The notes beneath the pieces were generated by a model. It ran no database searches. It saw nothing but the letters and a program-made list of their open reading frames with translations, and was not told the origin of the DNA. This document shows positions 11,905 through 21,310 of a stretch of 25,902 nucleotides of DNA, one piece after another. A program made the translations under genes and the position numbers. The stretch comes from a virus, in the IMG/VR virus record IMGVR_UViG_3300030389_003573, positions 1 through 25,902 of that record, one strand, 5' to 3'. Within the stretch, counting starts at the first letter, position 1. Each line of letters begins with the position of its first letter.

Positions 11905-12372
11905 TTAACCTTTAGGTATCCATTCTTCAACTTTTGGGTGTAAAATCACTTCTTCTTCATTTTGGGTTTGTATAGCTTCTTGATTTGCAAATATTGAAAG
12001 CTTATTAATTACTGCGGTTTGTAATTCCATCAATTGATCTGTTTTAAGTTGCATTTGTATCTGAGCATCCCGAAGCCTAGCAATTAGGGCTTCTCTGTCA
12101 GCGTTTGCACTTGCTAACTTGTCCTTAAGTTCTTCTACTTCTGAAGGGTCACGACCTGAAGCAATAGCGACCATAGAAGATATTGAACCAGTAATCACAC
12201 CAAGTATTCCCACTAATACATCACGGTTTTCATCTACTATCTTTACATAAGTTAAAAACAAAATGAGCAAAACAACCAAGACAAGAAAGAAAACAGAGAA
12301 CCACCAACCCCGCTTCGCTTTTTGATCTTTTGTGAACTCTGCATGGCTTTTATTTTGCTTCTTATCACTCAC
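11905..12372 (-). CDS. Two-helix membrane protein with coiled coil (holin-like)
   Basis: The 155-residue protein begins with a lysine-rich stretch. Two hydrophobic helices follow (about 23-43 and 52-72), joined by a short charged loop, then a coiled coil of about 50 residues and an acidic tail. The second helix carries GxxTGSISSMVAIASGR, a Gly/Ser-rich pattern seen in many small phage membrane proteins. Its start overlaps the end of the cyclase-like gene by four bases (ATGA, 12369-12372), so the two are probably translated together. It might be a class II holin, or a membrane effector or partner of the cyclase. No cyclic-nucleotide-binding domain is visible. The topology is seen; the function is not. 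Confidence 0.6.
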   Translation of the reverse strand: MSDKKQNKSHAEFTKDQKAKRGWWFSVFFLVLVVLLILFLTYVKIVDENRDVLVGILGVITGSISSMVAIASGRDPSEVEELKDKLASANADREALIARLRDAQIQMQLKTDQLMELQTAVINKLSIFANQEAIQTQNEEEVILHPKVEEWIPKG

Positions 12373-13193
12373 TTGAATACCTCGATAAACTTTTCAATGA
12401 ACACTATATAAGGATCTATCCAATAAAAGTAATATTCAAGCCCGCTCATCAAACGGGCGTGTCTATTCATTAAGATAGGAACCAAGACAGTCAAGAACCA
12501 TAAGAAAATAATTAGAGCGGTACGACTAGCAAAAAACCACAACCATTCTCTGAGTTCCTTGTCTCTTAATCTGCTTTTAATCCGTTTGGGTCCACCAAGT
12601 CTTTTCACCTTGTCGCTACCCTTTGGAGGTTGCAAGCTTTCAATAGTGGTTCCTACTGTATAAATGACTTGCGGAACTTTGACACCTTTGAAGCGATACA
12701 TACCAGCACAAGCATATCGTGTTCCTTTTGGTGTGTATCTGTTTGTTCTTGACTTAACCGCCTTCATTGCTTCTTTAGTTAGTAATACCTGACCAGCTCC
12801 ACAAAGTGACATAGTACGAGCGGCTATATTTTTTGATATACCTTCAAGCTCAATTTGTTTGGCACCGCTCAATGTGTAAAGTTCATCTTGTTTAACTTCT
12901 ACGATTACCCCCCAGTGAATACCAATTCTACATTGTAGCTTTGTTTTTTGAGGTATAGAATTCTGGTAGTGAAGTGCAAAGTTGACAGCATCAACAGGAC
13001 GTTCAAAGGAAAGCAAGAAACCATCAGATCTGTCTATTTCTCGACCGTTGAATTTTAGAATTAAAGATCGTGTGAGTCTATCATGATATTGAAGCCATTT
13101 AGCCGCCTTCATAGCCCCTACACTTTGAACAAACTTGGTGGAACCAATGAGGTCAAGTAGTACAATTGCAAGCTTGGTTTCTATAAGTTCCAT
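12369..13193 (-). CDS. Class III nucleotide cyclase-like protein with C-terminal membrane segment
   Basis: The ATG at 13193 is chosen because AGGAG lies 8 bases upstream; the product has 274 residues. Residues 8-140 match a class III adenylate/guanylate cyclase catalytic domain. LLDLIGST at 12-19 carries the first metal Asp (D14). REIDRSDGFLLSF at 51-63 carries the second (D57). RIGIHWG lies at 89-95, and KNIAAR at 121-126 carries the Asn and Arg that stabilise the transition state. The usual substrate-selecting Lys before the second Asp appears to be Ile53, so the base used cannot be told. Residues 217-242 form a hydrophobic membrane segment, with a second amphipathic or hydrophobic stretch at 253-270. 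It lies between terminase and portal and overlaps the two-helix membrane gene. Such a gene is unusual in a phage. Confidence 0.8.
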   Translation of the reverse strand: MELIETKLAIVLLDLIGSTKFVQSVGAMKAAKWLQYHDRLTRSLILKFNGREIDRSDGFLLSFERPVDAVNFALHYQNSIPQKTKLQCRIGIHWGVIVEVKQDELYTLSGAKQIELEGISKNIAARTMSLCGAGQVLLTKEAMKAVKSRTNRYTPKGTRYACAGMYRFKGVKVPQVIYTVGTTIESLQPPKGSDKVKRLGGPKRIKSRLRDKELREWLWFFASRTALIIFLWFLTVLVPILMNRHARLMSGLEYYFYWIDPYIVFIEKFIEVFK

Positions 13194-13194
13194 T

Positions 13195-14568
13195 TTAAAA
13201 GCTCCTATTCTTTGACCCTCCAACCTTAACACGTCTTTTATTTTTAACTACACCGCTTCTTCGTGTGTAGTTTCTTTGGTCAACTGCATTATCAGACCAA
13301 TTGAAGATTATACAATCATATCTTAATGCGTCCAATGGGTCTTCTCTACCATCTTTCTTGGGTTGTTCTTTATTATCCCAAGCATAGGATAGAAGGGCTT
13401 TTCTTAGGCTGTTACCCGTGGCACGTTCTCCACGTTCCCATACTTCTTTAGTTATTAAATAGCGTCTTGAGTTGAAGGCACGTTTAAGCCTTTGAACACC
13501 GTTCAAGATGTCAACCTTTATCGGGTCGGTGGTAGATCTTAAGGGAAGACCAAGCCCTAAAGGTGGTGGTTGTCGCATTACTCGAAAGGCACTTTTGCCC
13601 GTTTGGTCGTTTCGTGCTTTGCCCGCTTTGTCTGCTACACCTGTATCAAGCCATATTTTGGGACCGCTTGCCATATTCTTCAATGATCGTGGATAAGCTA
13701 CACTTAATATTAAGTTTGTTAGTTCTTCAGTAGTAACTTCTTTGGGGTTGAATTCATGACATATAATGTCAGCTTGTAATTCTTCATCATGACATATAAT
13801 CAAAACACTTGGCTTCCTGAAGCCCCAGTCTATAGCTATTCTTCCAGTCATGCTTTCTTTATACGTCCAACCGTCTATTATGTGGCTTTCTGTGAACTCT
13901 TGATAAATTAAACCTGTTGGTGGTTTGGGCTTGTTCATGATCATTGCTTCACGTTCTTCAGCGGGTAATAGTTTGGTGGCTTCAAACCATTCATCAGCAA
14001 GATTATCTTGATTCACATAGCTGGTGAATAGTAGCGGCAAACTTCCCGAAGCTTCAGCCATAGTACACCACCAAGCATCATTGACAGGTAAACCAACCAA
14101 AACAAGAATAGGAGAAGGACCAGCCCGTAAACGTCCAAGGGCTTTGTGGGCTACCTCAATATTTAAGGTTTGACATTCATCAATTAAACAGACCCCACTT
14201 GTTACATTCAAACCTTCAAGGGGGTTGTGTGTTGCGTCTCTTGTTCCTGGTCGATAGTACGACCGACACCAAACCGTTGAACCAGTGGAAGGATCTAACC
14301 ATTGTTTGTTCGTGTGGTTGTACGTCCATCCCAACGGGCTTAACCATTTTTGCATTTCAGGCATTAACACGCTGTTGTATCTTGGTGTCGTGTCGGTGAC
14401 TAATAATGTACTAGTATTTGGTCGAGTCTTGGCAATGAATAAGATAGAAAAAACTAACGCGCAAGTTTTACCACTTCCCCATCCACAACGAGCGGCAACC
14501 ACCTTTTGTTCATCCTTTAACGCTGTGATGATTGCTTTTTGTAAATCATTTAGTTTGATTGCTGTCAT
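13195..14568 (-). CDS. terL: Terminase large subunit
   Basis: The 457-residue product has the features of the DNA-packaging motor. Walker A is CGWGSGKT (28-35) and Walker B is VCLIDE (126-131) followed by a Cys-Gln pair. A RNase H-like nuclease domain begins at RIAIDWGF with the first metal Asp at 247, and a late Asp pair lies near DALRYD. The ATPase part pumps DNA into the prohead through the portal; the nuclease part cuts the concatemer. A stretch of about 55 bases separates it from the small subunit gene. The stop at 13195-13197 lies one base from the cyclase ATG. The ribosome binding site before its ATG is weak, so coupling with the small subunit gene is possible. Confidence 0.93.
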   Translation of the reverse strand: MTAIKLNDLQKAIITALKDEQKVVAARCGWGSGKTCALVFSILFIAKTRPNTSTLLVTDTTPRYNSVLMPEMQKWLSPLGWTYNHTNKQWLDPSTGSTVWCRSYYRPGTRDATHNPLEGLNVTSGVCLIDECQTLNIEVAHKALGRLRAGPSPILVLVGLPVNDAWWCTMAEASGSLPLLFTSYVNQDNLADEWFEATKLLPAEEREAMIMNKPKPPTGLIYQEFTESHIIDGWTYKESMTGRIAIDWGFRKPSVLIICHDEELQADIICHEFNPKEVTTEELTNLILSVAYPRSLKNMASGPKIWLDTGVADKAGKARNDQTGKSAFRVMRQPPPLGLGLPLRSTTDPIKVDILNGVQRLKRAFNSRRYLITKEVWERGERATGNSLRKALLSYAWDNKEQPKKDGREDPLDALRYDCIIFNWSDNAVDQRNYTRRSGVVKNKRRVKVGGSKNRSF

Positions 14569-16235: not shown

Positions 16236-16576
16236 CCTAGCTTCCTTCTGAGTGTCAGTCTGTTTTCTTCATACCAACGTTTATTCCAAGATTTTAGATA
16301 TTCTTTGTTCTTCAATCTCCATTCTCTTTGATAAGCCTTGCTTCTTTCTTTTGCCCCTTTTAAATATTCTTCACGTTCTGCTTGTGACATATTCTTCATG
16401 CATTGCTTTCTACGTCCTCCTTGTGGGTTGATCCCCTTGACCCACTTGTAAATTCTAGCCTTTGTTATTGGGTCACCATTTGTCATGGTTCGACCTTCTT
16501 CTATAAGTTGGTCTATAACTTCCTGAGTAGTCAAGCCGCTTTCTTTTAGCTCAATAGCTCTGTGAATTGTATTCAT
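16232..16576 (-). CDS. Small helix-turn-helix, basic DNA-binding-like protein
   Basis: The 114-residue protein has a helix-turn-helix-like N-terminus: a helix, then TTQEVIDQLIEEG, then ITKARIYKWVKG as a possible recognition helix. A very basic and aromatic tail follows (YQREWRLKNKEYLKSW and further), which looks suited to nucleic acid binding. It overlaps the end of the rIIA-like gene by four bases and the start of thyX by four. T4 rIIB, which follows rIIA, also begins with a helix-turn-helix, but it is much longer (about 312 residues); similarity in order is suggestive only. No catalytic motif is visible. Confidence 0.62.
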   Translation of the reverse strand: MNTIHRAIELKESGLTTQEVIDQLIEEGRTMTNGDPITKARIYKWVKGINPQGGRRKQCMKNMSQAEREEYLKGAKERSKAYQREWRLKNKEYLKSWNKRWYEENRLTLRRKLG

Positions 16577-18546
16577 GCTGGTACCTCATGAAGTACTTGG
16601 TTCTTCTTATATTCTCGAAAAAGTCTGGTCATATCCATTTCAAAGAAAGCTTGGCATCCCAACAAAGCCCAAGTTAGTCTTTCGGCTGAATAGGCTTGTG
16701 GGTCTTTCTTTAACTCAGGTAACGTTCGACCATGAAGGATGGATAAGGCGGCATACTCTTCCCAAAAAGGTTTAACGAACCATTCAATGATGTGGTTACG
16801 AGTAAAGGTTAATTGCTTCTTACTCAACCAATCTTCAGCTACGTTCACATAACCATGAAGAAGGTTATGGTCTTGATTGATGTATAGGAAGTTACCGTGA
16901 TTACCTTTAGCGCTAGGCGGTTCATAGAAAGCACCTTGCCAATGACCATCCACCAAGAACCGTTCTTCGGCATCATCATGGGTCTTCTTGATAAACCTAA
17001 TTCTTGGGGCTTCTCTTCGCTTGGCTTCGGCTACCTTTCTTGCTTTCTTCTTTGCTTCTTCGGCTTCAAGTTCTTCCTTAGTTTTTGGCTTTGACTCGGT
17101 GGGTTCACTTGGTTGACTTTCTGAAGTGGCGTTGGTTTTACCCTGTAAGCTTCCAAACAATTCACCAAGTTTAACACCAGCTAATAAGTCACCGTTCTTG
17201 TCAGAAATTAAAAGACCATTATCTCCCTTCTTAATCTTTCGGTTCTCTTTCGGGATCTTCAACCACTTTTCCATCTTTTTGACTGCCTTAGACTGATGAT
17301 CTTTGGTAAGACCTTCAAGGGCTTCTTCTTCGATTAGTTCAATGATTTCCTTTGGCATATTCTCTTGAAAGTACTTTTTCAGTTCATCAAGTGGTAGGTG
17401 TTCGGTTTGTTCGCTTGTCTCTGACTCTTTCCAAGATAGCTTTGACCGTTCTTGATTAGGGAATACACCCCGCTTTGATTCTTGAGTATAGACAGGTGGT
17501 TCAATAAGCAAGGTGATTCTCTTACCTACGTTCTTGTAATAAATACCCCAAGAGTTACGGACCGCCGCTATGGTTTGAGGTGGTAATTGTCCAAAGTCAC
17601 CATAAACTTCATTCTTATAGATGATAGACTGATTGAACTTTAATTTATTTATGGATGAATCCCCATAAAGTCCTAATGCTGCTCTCCCGCAATTCTTGAT
17701 AAAAGGTCGAATAGACCATCCTCTAAAATAAAGCGTATCTAATTCTTTTGAACCCTTATTAAGTCTATCAATTGGTGAATCAAGTTCTCGAACAACATTA
17801 CTATGTTTAGCTTTAGCCCCACGTCCTAAAGTTACTCTTGGTACTACAGGATAAGTTAAATACCTTTCGTTAAGGTAGGGATAGCCTTTGAACCTCATTT
17901 GGTCAAAAGTCTCTTCATAATTATTAAAGTCATTACCGCATAGAATGACAGCCGTACCATACTTATGATTACTCTTGGTATTGTTATCCCACCAATTCAA
18001 CCAATCAACTGAATCAATGGTAAACTTGTCATAACCACGTTCAATGACTTCTTCAAAGTCGAGTACATAATCAATGAAGGTTTCAACGTCCTCTTCGTGT
18101 GCAAAGATTGAATTCTCAGCACTGGTTAAGCCTCTAGCACCAGCTAGCCCCTTGTTCATGTGTAGCCATATCATCGACCCAAAGGGCTGATCTTTGGTTC
18201 TTGAGATAACAATTACACCGTATTGATTGAAGGGTAAAGTACTGACTTTAAGACCTACCCCAAAGTTTTGGTCTATCTGTCCCACTGTCTTCGATGAACT
18301 GTTGGTTTCATTGGTGTACTTTTCAAGGTCTTTCTTATTCATGCCTGGACCATTGTCTATAATGACAGCTCTTTTGATCCCCTGAGCTTTATAGATGGAT
18401 TTGCAGAAAGTGAACCGTATATCAGTTGCACCAGCTTCAACACTGTTTTGGTATATCTCCCTCATGTATTGTTGACTGTGCATTAAAGCACTTGCACGAA
18501 GTAAGAAGGCAGCGGGGTTAGCGTCTTTCATTGGTTTGGTTGACAT
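16573..18546 (-). CDS. GHKL-type ATPase resembling phage rIIA
   Basis: The ATG at 18546 has GGAG 8 bases upstream; an ATG at 18582 in frame has no such signal. The 657 residues begin with a clear Hsp90/MutL/histidine-kinase type ATPase fold. The N-box is REIYQNSVEAGA (Glu30, Asn34), the G1 box is DNGPGM (64-69) and the G2 box is GVGLK (96-100). Residues 120-370 look like a second domain with alternating structure. Residues 470-510 are charged coil rich in Glu and Lys (SESQPSEPTESKP and beyond). The rest is a compact C-terminal domain. T4 rIIA has the same N-terminal ATPase and a similar size; it counters exclusion systems. Here it overlaps a helix-turn-helix gene and precedes thyX. rIIA homology is a proposal from fold, size and setting. 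Confidence 0.75.
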   Translation of the reverse strand: MSTKPMKDANPAAFLLRASALMHSQQYMREIYQNSVEAGATDIRFTFCKSIYKAQGIKRAVIIDNGPGMNKKDLEKYTNETNSSSKTVGQIDQNFGVGLKVSTLPFNQYGVIVISRTKDQPFGSMIWLHMNKGLAGARGLTSAENSIFAHEEDVETFIDYVLDFEEVIERGYDKFTIDSVDWLNWWDNNTKSNHKYGTAVILCGNDFNNYEETFDQMRFKGYPYLNERYLTYPVVPRVTLGRGAKAKHSNVVRELDSPIDRLNKGSKELDTLYFRGWSIRPFIKNCGRAALGLYGDSSINKLKFNQSIIYKNEVYGDFGQLPPQTIAAVRNSWGIYYKNVGKRITLLIEPPVYTQESKRGVFPNQERSKLSWKESETSEQTEHLPLDELKKYFQENMPKEIIELIEEEALEGLTKDHQSKAVKKMEKWLKIPKENRKIKKGDNGLLISDKNGDLLAGVKLGELFGSLQGKTNATSESQPSEPTESKPKTKEELEAEEAKKKARKVAEAKRREAPRIRFIKKTHDDAEERFLVDGHWQGAFYEPPSAKGNHGNFLYINQDHNLLHGYVNVAEDWLSKKQLTFTRNHIIEWFVKPFWEEYAALSILHGRTLPELKKDPQAYSAERLTWALLGCQAFFEMDMTRLFREYKKNQVLHEVPA

Positions 18547-18610
18547 AGATACTTCTCCTTTAATGATTGTCTTATTTGTCATATTTATAGGTCTTATTTT
18601 CGTAAGGTTA

Positions 18611-18991
18611 TCAATTACCCCAAGGGTTATTTGTTTCAGGTCCTAGCAATTGGCTTGAATGTTGTTGCTCTTTTTTATTTTTAAGAACCTTGAAAGTCTT
18701 TGCTACGACTTCCCATCGTATGGCACCAATTTGATTTTGATAACTGGTTAATTTACCTTCCACATAGACTAGTGAACCCTTTTGAATTTGGTTCATTACT
18801 CGACCCGCTGAATACCCAAATACCTTTATTTTATGCCATTCTGTTTGATTGTCATACTCTCCATTAGGCTTCTTAAAACTTTCTGTGGTAGCGAGTGAGA
18901 AAACTGCAAATGGTTTATTATTCGTTTCGATCAGTTCGGGATTTTTCCCTGCGTTTCCTATCAGGGTTATTTTGTTGACGCTTGCACTCAT
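18611..18991 (-). CDS. ssb: Single-stranded DNA-binding protein
   Basis: The 126-residue product is an OB-fold SSB. It opens with MSASVNKITLIGNAGKNPEL and continues with FSLATTESF, TEWHKIKVFGYSAG and GSLVYVEGKL, the standard order of SSB strands. It coats single-stranded DNA during replication and recombination and is likely the partner of the RecT-like protein and the helicase loader. The C-terminal tail is short and ends in NNPWGN, without the acidic DDDIPF tip that bacterial SSBs use to recruit partners. The start overlaps the end of the ribbon-helix-helix gene by four bases. The gene lies in the replication operon. Confidence 0.93.
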   Translation of the reverse strand: MSASVNKITLIGNAGKNPELIETNNKPFAVFSLATTESFKKPNGEYDNQTEWHKIKVFGYSAGRVMNQIQKGSLVYVEGKLTSYQNQIGAIRWEVVAKTFKVLKNKKEQQHSSQLLGPETNNPWGN

Positions 18992-19142
18992 TTAGTTCTT
19001 TCCTCAGTTTTTGCAGTCTGGTTGCAAAGTAGTCCGCTGTCTGTGCTGAAGTAGGAAGGTGCCTCGCTTGGTCCCAAAATTCGTAATAAGTCAAGGTTGA
19101 CTTGATTTCCTGTTCTATTATTTCGATGGTTCTCGATGACAT
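18918..19142 (-). CDS. Possible overlapping small gene, 74 residues
   Basis: An ATG at 19142 opens a frame ending within ssb, in a different frame from both the regulator gene and ssb. Its sequence looks protein-like, with amphipathic helices such as TLTYYEFWDQARHLP and ATRLQKLRKELNECKRQQ, and a basic tail. There is no ribosome binding site, and the frame overlaps two better supported genes. It could be a real overlapping gene, or coding-like by chance. I hold it as doubtful. Confidence 0.25.
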   Translation of the reverse strand: MSSRTIEIIEQEIKSTLTYYEFWDQARHLPTSAQTADYFATRLQKLRKELNECKRQQNNPDRKRREKSRTDRNE

Positions 19143-19266
19143 AAGATAAACTTAAATGTATTAGTTGACTGATAGATCTATGGTTTATCTTGCCTAACCT
19201 TTGCAAGTAATCAAGGTTTTCTTTGCTTGTCCTAAATGTTTTAGGAATCATTTTATTTTCACTCAT
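18988..19266 (-). CDS. Ribbon-helix-helix (CopG-like) regulator
   Basis: The ATG at 19266 has AAGGAG a few bases upstream. The 92-residue protein starts with KTFRTSKENLDYLQRLGKIN, matching a ribbon-helix-helix: a beta strand followed by two helices (about residues 8-45), a small dimeric DNA-binding fold. The tail after residue 48 is polar and carries no recognised domain. Its start sits just after a promoter-like site with a 7-bp inverted repeat, so it may repress itself and the genes behind it, including ssb and the rIIA-like gene. It overlaps ssb by four bases at its end. Confidence 0.65.
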   Translation of the reverse strand: MSENKMIPKTFRTSKENLDYLQRLGKINHRSISQLIHLSLSYVIENHRNNRTGNQVNLDLLRILGPSEAPSYFSTDSGLLCNQTAKTEERTK

Positions 19267-19286
19267 TGTGTCTCCTTTCACTTCAA

Positions 19287-19334: not shown

Positions 19335-20252
19335 TTAACCTATCCAGGCTTGTAATAGATCACTATTTTGTATTCTACGATCTTGTCCGATCATTGTAAT
19401 TGGTTCACCAAACATAGCTATAAATCTGCTTAATATAGCTTTGTTGTGATCAATAGCGGTCTTTAATTGCTGGTTTGTCAAATTGCTCGTAAGTATGACA
19501 GATAGTTTTCCTGACTTCCAACGCTCATAAATCTTTTGTACTATATCCGCCGTAGTCGATTTATACCAGTTGGTTTGATTAGCACCACCACCAACACCAC
19601 AAAACTCATCAAATAATAGTAAATCAATATCATCAAGCCAATGTTTCAAAGGGTCTTTATCTCCGCTATAAGATCGTTTTATTTGGTCAATTAATTGATT
19701 GTGTGAAATATATACAACTTTTAAGCCGCTAAATACAGCTTCTTTAGCCATGCAATAAAGCAAAGATGTTTTACCATTACCTGGGTCACCTCTTAGATAA
19801 AGTGAAGGGCTTGCTTGTATTTCTCTGTTTTTCGGTTGTTGCATCCAATCTAGCAAACCTTGAACCCTTTCTTGTTGCTTTGGTGAATCCCATTCATAAG
19901 CTTTGAAATGCATACCATAACTATCACTAGGTAGTTGAAGCTTAGTAAGTTGATTCATTTTTCTTCTTGGTATTTCACAAAACTTACAAAGTCTTGAAGT
20001 AATGATATGTCCTACTCGCTCAGGAATATAACCACCTTCACACCTTCCACATTGTGGTAATTCTTTGCATTGAAAAAAAGGAGCGTCTTTATATACCAAG
20101 TTTTCCAGCTCTAAATTAGTTGCATTGAGATGACGAAAATCTAGAAACTGTTTTTTAGTTTTTGGCTTGTTCTTTGTTTCTTGTCGTTTGAGTTCTTGAA
20201 TTTTTTTTAATCCGACCAAAGAACCTTCTAGGGCTTGTGAAAGACTTTTCAT
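19335..20252 (-). CDS. DnaC-like helicase loader ATPase with zinc-finger-like region
   Basis: The 305-residue protein has an AAA+ domain of the DnaC/IstB type: Walker A GDPGNGKT (155-162), Walker B LLLFDEF (211-217), and a later sensor-like stretch SVILTSNLT. Upstream of the ATPase a cysteine cluster (CGRC at 68-71 and CKFC at 89-92, with another Cys at 62) probably binds zinc. Such proteins load the replicative helicase at the origin. It overlaps the gene before it, a winged-helix initiator-like protein, by four bases (ATGA), an arrangement typical of phage O/P-like pairs. It is followed by a regulatory site and the RHH gene. Confidence 0.85.
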   Translation of the reverse strand: MKSLSQALEGSLVGLKKIQELKRQETKNKPKTKKQFLDFRHLNATNLELENLVYKDAPFFQCKELPQCGRCEGGYIPERVGHIITSRLCKFCEIPRRKMNQLTKLQLPSDSYGMHFKAYEWDSPKQQERVQGLLDWMQQPKNREIQASPSLYLRGDPGNGKTSLLYCMAKEAVFSGLKVVYISHNQLIDQIKRSYSGDKDPLKHWLDDIDLLLFDEFCGVGGGANQTNWYKSTTADIVQKIYERWKSGKLSVILTSNLTNQQLKTAIDHNKAILSRFIAMFGEPITMIGQDRRIQNSDLLQAWIG

Positions 20253-20782
20253 GATTCACCTACCTTATTTGCTTGTAAATCAGCTTCTACTTGTTCTCTT
20301 AATTCATTACCCCAAACCTCTCCAGGTTCTACCTCATATACATATTGTTTAATAGTTGTATATATATTGTTATTATAGTTAGTTGTTAGTGTTGTATCCT
20401 GTATAACTGCTTCTGTTGTCTCTTGTATAACAGTAGTATTATCTTCTGTATAACTAGAAATGTTATCTTTTGTATCACAGGGTGTTATATATTGAGAATC
20501 AGATTGCTCAAGGTTTTCAATGTTTAATTTCATAACTGGAGCTTTACATTTTCCACTTGTAAACCAGTCTCTAGAAATCAATTCTAGCTTCTCAAATTTC
20601 TTAATATACTTTACAAGATTGTGTCGTTTCTTACCTGTAAGTTTTGCAAGTGCTGTGTAACTTGTTCGATTAGTCCACGTCTGCCAATCGACAGTCAATA
20701 AGATAGCCATCAAAATTACTTTGTCAGAATCGGTCAAGTCAGTTCTTTTTAGTATTGCCTTTCGGGCTTCGATTTCCTTCAT
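20249..20782 (-). CDS. Replication initiator-like winged-helix protein carrying iterons
   Basis: The 177-residue protein has an N-terminal winged-helix segment (about residues 15-90; TSYTALAKLTGKKRHNLVKYIKKFEKLELI). A Thr/Asn-rich middle (about 100-145) and a helical C-terminus follow. It precedes a DnaC-like loader, so it probably acts as the origin-binding initiator, like lambda O or DnaD-type phage proteins. The middle region is encoded by the four-copy repeat array at 20390-20479, which resembles iterons. AGGAG precedes the ATG at 20782, which diverges from the plus-strand block. The exact family is not recognised. Confidence 0.68.
   Translation of the reverse strand: MKEIEARKAILKRTDLTDSDKVILMAILLTVDWQTWTNRTSYTALAKLTGKKRHNLVKYIKKFEKLELISRDWFTSGKCKAPVMKLNIENLEQSDSQYITPCDTKDNISSYTEDNTTVIQETTEAVIQDTTLTTNYNNNIYTTIKQYVYEVEPGEVWGNELREQVEADLQANKVGES
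20341..20479. repeat. Iteron array with AT-rich tract: probable origin of replication
   Basis: Four 19-bp copies read TGTTGTATCCTGTATAACT (20390-20408), TGTTGTCTCTTGTATAACA (20414-20432), TATTATCTTCTGTATAACT (20437-20455) and TGTTATCTTTTGTATCACA (20461-20479). Their starts are 24, 23 and 24 bases apart. Beside them, 20341-20389 is almost wholly A and T, suited to DNA melting, and may hold two decayed copies. The copies fall in different reading phases (VIQ in two copies, SYT in a third), so they are conserved as DNA and not as peptide. The array lies in the initiator-like gene, as in lambda O. Confidence 0.75.
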
Positions 20783-20912
20783 AGTTCTTCTCCTGTGTTG
20801 AAGGGTTAAATACTATTTATCAAATTAAAATAAACTTTACAACAAATTTATTTGACATTAATAAAAAAACAATATAACAATAGCTCACAACCTAAGACCA
20901 AAGGAGATGACA
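20783..20912. promoter_or_regulatory. Divergent promoter region between replication operon and plus-strand block
   Basis: On the plus strand TTGACA (20852-20857) is followed after 15 bases by TATAAC (20873-20878), or after 17 by TAACAA, pointing to the small helix-turn-helix gene. On the minus strand TTGTAA and TAAATA stand 17 bases apart ahead of the initiator-like gene. A short inverted repeat, TCAAAT (20820-20825) and ATTTGA (20850-20855), overlaps the plus -35. The region is very AT-rich and suits a lambda-like switch with the neighbouring helix-turn-helix protein as regulator; promoter calls are by eye. Confidence 0.55.
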
Positions 20913-21143
20913 ATGAAGGTCTATAAAAGACAGTTTTTAAAAAAACATGTCAAACTTTCTTTACTCGCAGAGAGAACAGGAATCACCCTCAGTTATTTAT
21001 CAAGAATCATAAATAATCACATCATACCAAGTGATGATCTGGCTTTCTCATTAGCTGAACATGCAAACATTCTTTCTTTCCAAAATGACTACTTCACCCC
21101 ATCCGATTTTATACCAAAGATAGCTATAAAGGTTTCTGAATAA
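20913..21143 (+). CDS. Small Cro/XRE-like helix-turn-helix regulator
   Basis: The ATG at 20913 has AAGGAG six bases upstream; an ATG at 20907 is too close to that site. The 76-residue product has a typical helix-turn-helix (LSLLAERTGITLSYLSRIIN, then a partly hydrophobic C-terminus), like Cro or small XRE-family repressors. It is divergent from the replication operon and sits by the promoter region it probably controls. Its stop shares bases with the next start (TAATG). It is likely a regulator of early gene expression or of the acidic protein gene behind it. Confidence 0.78.
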   Translation: MKVYKRQFLKKHVKLSLLAERTGITLSYLSRIINNHIIPSDDLAFSLAEHANILSFQNDYFTPSDFIPKIAIKVSE

Positions 21144-21310
21144 TGAAAGATCAATATTTTCTTTTTGGCAATGCTTACCCTGATAATGAAGACCTTGATG
21201 ATACCGAAGACACAGAAACCGAAGAAGAAGAACATGATGACCAAGACTTAAGAGACTACGAAGACCAACTTAATGATGAGCTTGACCGTGAAATAGGACG
21301 CTCATTTTAA
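21143..21310 (+). CDS. Very acidic 55-residue protein, possible DNA mimic
   Basis: This short gene begins at ATG 21143, sharing the A of the upstream stop (TAATG), and ends at TAA 21308-21310. The product has 23 Asp or Glu in 55 residues against four Lys or Arg, with a net charge near -19. An acidic core (TETEEEEHDDQDLRDYEDQ) follows a short aromatic start (YFLFGNAYP). Acidic small phage proteins often mimic DNA and block restriction or CRISPR enzymes or other DNA-binding proteins. The translational coupling to a helix-turn-helix regulator adds interest. Function is inferred from composition only; a structural or chaperone role is possible. Confidence 0.6.
   Translation: MKDQYFLFGNAYPDNEDLDDTEDTETEEEEHDDQDLRDYEDQLNDELDREIGRSF

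Follow-up and report, generated by a model that had tools for sequence, protein, structure and literature searches.

We identified an array of four 19-bp iterons and an adjoining AT-rich tract inside the initiator gene of a virus that is most likely a phage. To judge from their sequence and arrangement, the array and tract very probably form the replication origin of this virus, placed within the initiator gene as in lambda. The window, meaning the whole stretch of DNA that was analysed, comprises the 25,902 bases of a virus record in IMG/VR, and its relevant features are collected in Table 1. The gene for a helicase loader lies directly downstream of the initiator gene and starts with a 4-nt overlap onto it; profile searches (Pfam and PHROG) placed genes for a ribbon-helix-helix (RHH)-like protein and a single-stranded DNA-binding protein (SSB) downstream of the loader gene. 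The layout of array, unstable tract and gene is kept in seven relatives and therefore almost certainly marks the start of DNA copying.

Table 1. Features of the candidate origin and its surroundings, in window coordinates
Feature	Positions	Strand	Details
Initiator gene	20249-20782	minus	177 aa
DnaC/IstB-like AAA+ helicase loader gene	19335-20252	minus	IstB_IS21 E=3.7e-9; PHROG 50 (DnaC-like helicase loader) E=3e-29
Ribbon-helix-helix (RHH) protein gene	18988-19281	minus	
Cro-like protein gene	20907-21143		
Degenerate fifth copy	20483-20501	minus	TGATTCT-CAATA-TATAACA; left arm decayed, right arm TATAACA intact
Iteron copy 1	20461-20479	minus	TGTGATA-CAAAA-GATAACA; gene nt 304
Iteron copy 2	20437-20455	minus	AGTTATA-CAGAA-GATAATA; gene nt 328
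Iteron copy 3	20414-20432	minus	TGTTATA-CAAGA-GACAACA; gene nt 351; phase differs from copies 1 and 2
Iteron copy 4	20390-20408	minus	AGTTATA-CAGGA-TACAACA; gene nt 375; adjoins AT tract
AT-rich least stable tract, candidate DNA unwinding element	20336-20385		16% GC; nearest-neighbour stability
Predicted helix-turn-helix	20588-20659	minus	residues 42-65: helix 42-49, turn, recognition helix 53-65 (RHNLVKYIKKFEK)

A preliminary description of this DNA had reported four 19-bp copies starting 24, 23 and 24 bases apart, with the middle shift changing the reading phase. Both points were confirmed at 20390-20479 in the minus-strand gene, where copies 1 and 2 encode CDTKDNIS and SYTEDNTT and copies 3 and 4 encode (T)VIQETTE and (A)VIQDTTL. 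Each copy is an imperfect 7-5-7 hyphenated dyad (an inverted repeat) with the consensus TGTTATA/C-N5-GATAACA. The dyad symmetry of the window copies is 4-5 of 7, below that of the relatives (4-7, mostly 6-7). The degenerate fifth copy precedes copy 1 in the gene by a 22-bp step and is in register with the second of the six copies found in the relatives. A scan with the window-type iteron pattern hit at least 120 stretches, with one match each among the matches listed, and these stretches were taken as chance matches. A single TGTTATA half-site also occurs on the minus strand at 20862-20885, in the intergenic stretch that precedes the initiator gene, and three relatives (L002, L003 and L005) have TGTTAAC at the equivalent place; this half-site is possibly autoregulatory, or it may be there by chance.

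The complete initiator gene was found in seven uncultured viral contigs (L002, L003, L005 and L016 to L019), whose winged-helix regions are 56-72% identical to that of the window; whole-protein identity is 56-60% for L002, L003 and L005 and 42-45% for L016 to L019. The comparison with relatives had been set beforehand as the refuting test, and the repeats are present in 7 of 7 that keep the complete gene. Each of the seven has six dyads at the same place, from gene nt 277-282 onward, and a partial contig with only the end of the gene (L004) has five copies. These 7-5-7 hyphenated dyads, TGTTAnC-N5-GnTAACA, are nearly perfect in symmetry and stand at steps of 22-24 bp, with one 35-bp step in L018 and L019, and in all relatives the copies fall in two codon phases. 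No initiator relatives were found among cultured phages, plasmids and genome contigs at the sensitivities used, and no prophage relatives were found in the genome contigs. Searches of cultured phages and plasmids likewise returned no relatives of the window's loader or terminase-like protein, and only remote matches for the loader of one relative and for RecT.

The best four-copy repeat score in the initiator gene is 89 of 114, which is above all of 200 synonymous-codon shuffles that keep the protein and its codon usage (mean 73, maximum 84) and above all of 200 dinucleotide shuffles (mean 57.9, maximum 67). The lambda O gene, used as a positive control, scored 88 and returned the annotated iterons with their spacing of 20, 24 and 23, so the test recognises a known case. 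A repeat at the peptide level, in which an 8-residue linker unit was duplicated by slippage and the DNA has no function of its own, would account for the 24-nt steps, which are whole codons, and would suit the predicted disorder of the encoded region. The 22- and 23-bp steps, however, put the copies in two phases. This alternation of codon phases occurs in every relative, so that one DNA word is translated into unrelated peptides (PVINMITP and CYQDDNTP), and the DNA of the array is therefore most likely what selection has acted on. Moreover, identity of the encoded peptide between the window and L016 to L019 falls to 24-29%, yet the dyad persists. Given the phase alternation and the failure of synonymous shuffles to reach the observed score, we rejected the peptide-level reading as extremely improbable.

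Third codon positions were also compared. Within half-sites they changed less often than elsewhere in the gene for four of the six pairs of sequences (p 0.0005-0.024), and the two remaining pairs, both involving L005, gave no significant difference (p 0.10 and 0.35), the six pairs sharing ancestry and not being independent. Changed third positions inside and outside the half-sites numbered 0/32 and 16/94 for L002/L003, 0/31 and 21/92 for L018/L019, 3/32 and 40/95 for L016/L017, and 4/20 and 46/93 for the window and L005. The proposal that selection acts on DNA and not on the peptide is supported by the two-phase DNA word, the codon shuffles and the third positions.

An AT tract beside the copies had also been described, and this too held. 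The tract at 20336-20385 has the lowest stability of any 50-mer in the 25.9-kb window, tied with a 50-mer one base away. In the window and in 7 of 7 relatives, the 50-mer of lowest stability within the gene starts inside the last copy or at most about 5 bp beyond it, and in the lambda O control the least stable tract follows the array too. GC skew in the window gave no origin signal at the array site.

An AlphaFold2 model of the initiator has a confident winged helix at residues 1-90, a disordered linker at residues 95-158, for which the array and the AT tract code, and a C-terminal helix of lower confidence at residues 159-174. The initiator may be a very small O-type protein, made of one winged helix and one C-terminal helix. 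The winged helix matches Pfam HTH_36 (PF13730) below the cut-off of 25 bits in the window (20.1 bits, E=5e-4) and in L016 (24.2 bits), and above it in L003, L017 and L018 (29.0-30.3 bits). A profile of O-like initiators, phrog_678, is matched by the window protein (E=6.7e-6), L017 (4.2e-6) and L003 (3.4e-6), and also by lambda O (E=1.7e-35); the window protein matches PHROG 345 (replication initiation, O-like) as well. The likeness to lambda O at the protein level runs through the shared profile only; direct profile comparison of the two found no homology. The window protein was unlisted for Pfam Phage_rep_O (PF04492), for which L003 reached 16.6 bits against a curated cut-off of 28.7. The best PDB fold match of the model was a plasmid Rep-DNA complex (5kbj), a weak match with E=7.5e-3, and a sequence search of solved structures gave nothing useful.

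The half-sites of the relatives fall into two classes. L002 to L005 and L016 have TGTTATC-N5-GATAACA, and L017 to L019 have TGTTAAC-N5-GTTAACA or mixtures. Residues 55 and 57 of the recognition helix are N and V in the window, L002, L005 and L016, N and A in L003, and S and S in L017 to L019, giving the motif NIVR in L002, L005 and L016, NVAR in L003, and SISR or SVSR in L017 to L019. Position 6 of the half-site is T in the N55 group and mostly A in the group with S55 and S57. The switch from TGTTATC to TGTTAAC thus goes with that from NIVR to SISR, also between L016 and L017. The winged helix of L016 is 83% identical to that of L017 and 63% identical to that of L002, yet L016 shares its half-site and helix residues with L002. 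The covariation is suggestive, because it rests on one evolutionary switch. A recognition code in which residues 55 and 57 (N,V or S,S) of a very small O-type initiator set position 6 of the half-site is possible, and we propose it tentatively. If the code is true, an intragenic origin and its host gene can be watched as they co-evolve, with changes in the sites rewriting the coding sequence.

The array could also consist of operators, or of partition or incompatibility sites, for the Cro-like or the RHH protein, whose genes belong to the same module in the relatives with the neighbourhood read. The array lies inside a gene and not at a promoter, and the most unstable DNA is next to it, which does not suit such sites. 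Moreover, the half-site class tracks the recognition helix of the initiator, and the strand of the RHH protein fails to track it (TFRTS in L003, HLYLN in L016, TFYLS in L017 and NFRIK in L018). This suggestive covariation favours the initiator as the binder of the array over both proteins, and we consider such sites for either protein very unlikely.

Every testable anatomical feature of the lambda design is present here. As in the lambda origin within gene O, there are four dyad sites (18-19 bp in lambda) that are spaced by 20-24 bp and fall in at least two codon phases, and the array is followed by the least stable tract of the gene and then by a loader gene with a 4-nt overlap. Lambda-style iterons inside the initiator gene and upstream of a helicase loader, as first proposed for this DNA, are supported by the relatives, and the order was checked against the lambda record. 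The site sequence differs from that of lambda, the initiator has 177 aa whereas lambda O has 299, and the initiator falls below the cut-off of Pfam Phage_rep_O. The loader is a DnaC/IstB-like AAA+ protein, unlike lambda P, which to our knowledge is outside that family. From its anatomy the system would work like the lambda origin; with its initiator outside Phage_rep_O and its DnaC-like loader, it forms a separate lineage. Among lambdoid phages the number of iterons ranges from four (lambda) to six (P27 and 933W), extra copies lengthening O (PMC7466680). Copy number varies similarly here, with four or five in the window and six in relatives, but the iterons of P27 and 933W are nearly those of lambda in sequence, whereas the relatives studied here differ in the half-site itself. 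Iteron origins of plasmids with a winged-helix Rep (5kbj) are also comparable, the winged-helix fold being the top PDB match, a weak one; the initiator has no sequence match in plasmid records or solved structures.

Dimers of O occupy each iteron of lambda, and the resulting complex stresses the AT-rich tract; O has an N-terminal DNA-binding domain, a flexible linker and a C-terminal region that contacts P (PMC6022878). We infer binding by the initiator, dimerisation, melting and loader contact in the present system as well. For binding by dimers the pointers are indirect, namely the dyad symmetry of the sites and the covariation of half-site and recognition helix. Dimers of the 177-aa winged-helix initiator would bind the four, perhaps five, 7-5-7 dyads, which follow each other at intervals of roughly two helical turns, and the nucleoprotein complex so formed would strain and melt the AT tract next to them. 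Tethered by the flexible linker for which the sites also code, the C-terminal helix may then recruit the DnaC-like loader and thereby the host helicase.

Initiators of plasmids have operators and control sites among their targets, and the chief role of initiator binding to the array might likewise be to control the initiator gene or copy number, the true origin being elsewhere; the window may be a fragment, which leaves room for another origin. The array, unstable tract and loader gene nevertheless make up the minimal lambda origin layout, and no second cluster of sites occurs elsewhere in the window or in the other records searched, so we regard a purely regulatory array as highly unlikely. 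The origin reading places a lambda-type intragenic origin, with a DnaC-like loader, in a phage lineage that had no relatives among the cultured phages searched. The sites and recognition helices form a natural series that would make the co-evolution of initiator and origin measurable under a double constraint, on DNA and on protein.

Several neighbouring genes deserve mention. A 74-aa ORF at 18918-19142 (minus strand) overlaps the RHH-like gene by about 155 nt in another frame. Clear conservation of its product (..YEFWDQ.RHLP.AAQTADYFA.RL..LR.ELN..) in L003 (5276-5512) and in L018 (6745-6960) makes the ORF a likely true overlapping gene that bridges to SSB. A 669-aa GHKL/HATPase protein (HATPase_c_3) is encoded at 16573-18582 (minus strand), and a similar protein follows SSB in L018 (7382-9373). 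Between the Cro-like and RecT-side genes is a very acidic small ORF at 21143-21310 (EDLDDTEDTETEEEEHDDQD..), and acidic ORFs resembling it occur at that place in L017 (4446-4640) and L018 (4109-4267). Beside the terminase-like gene, the protein encoded at 12369-13232 (minus strand) matches the adenylate/guanylate cyclase catalytic domain (PF00211, above the cut-off), unusual in a phage, and has hydrophobic stretches at its C-terminal end.
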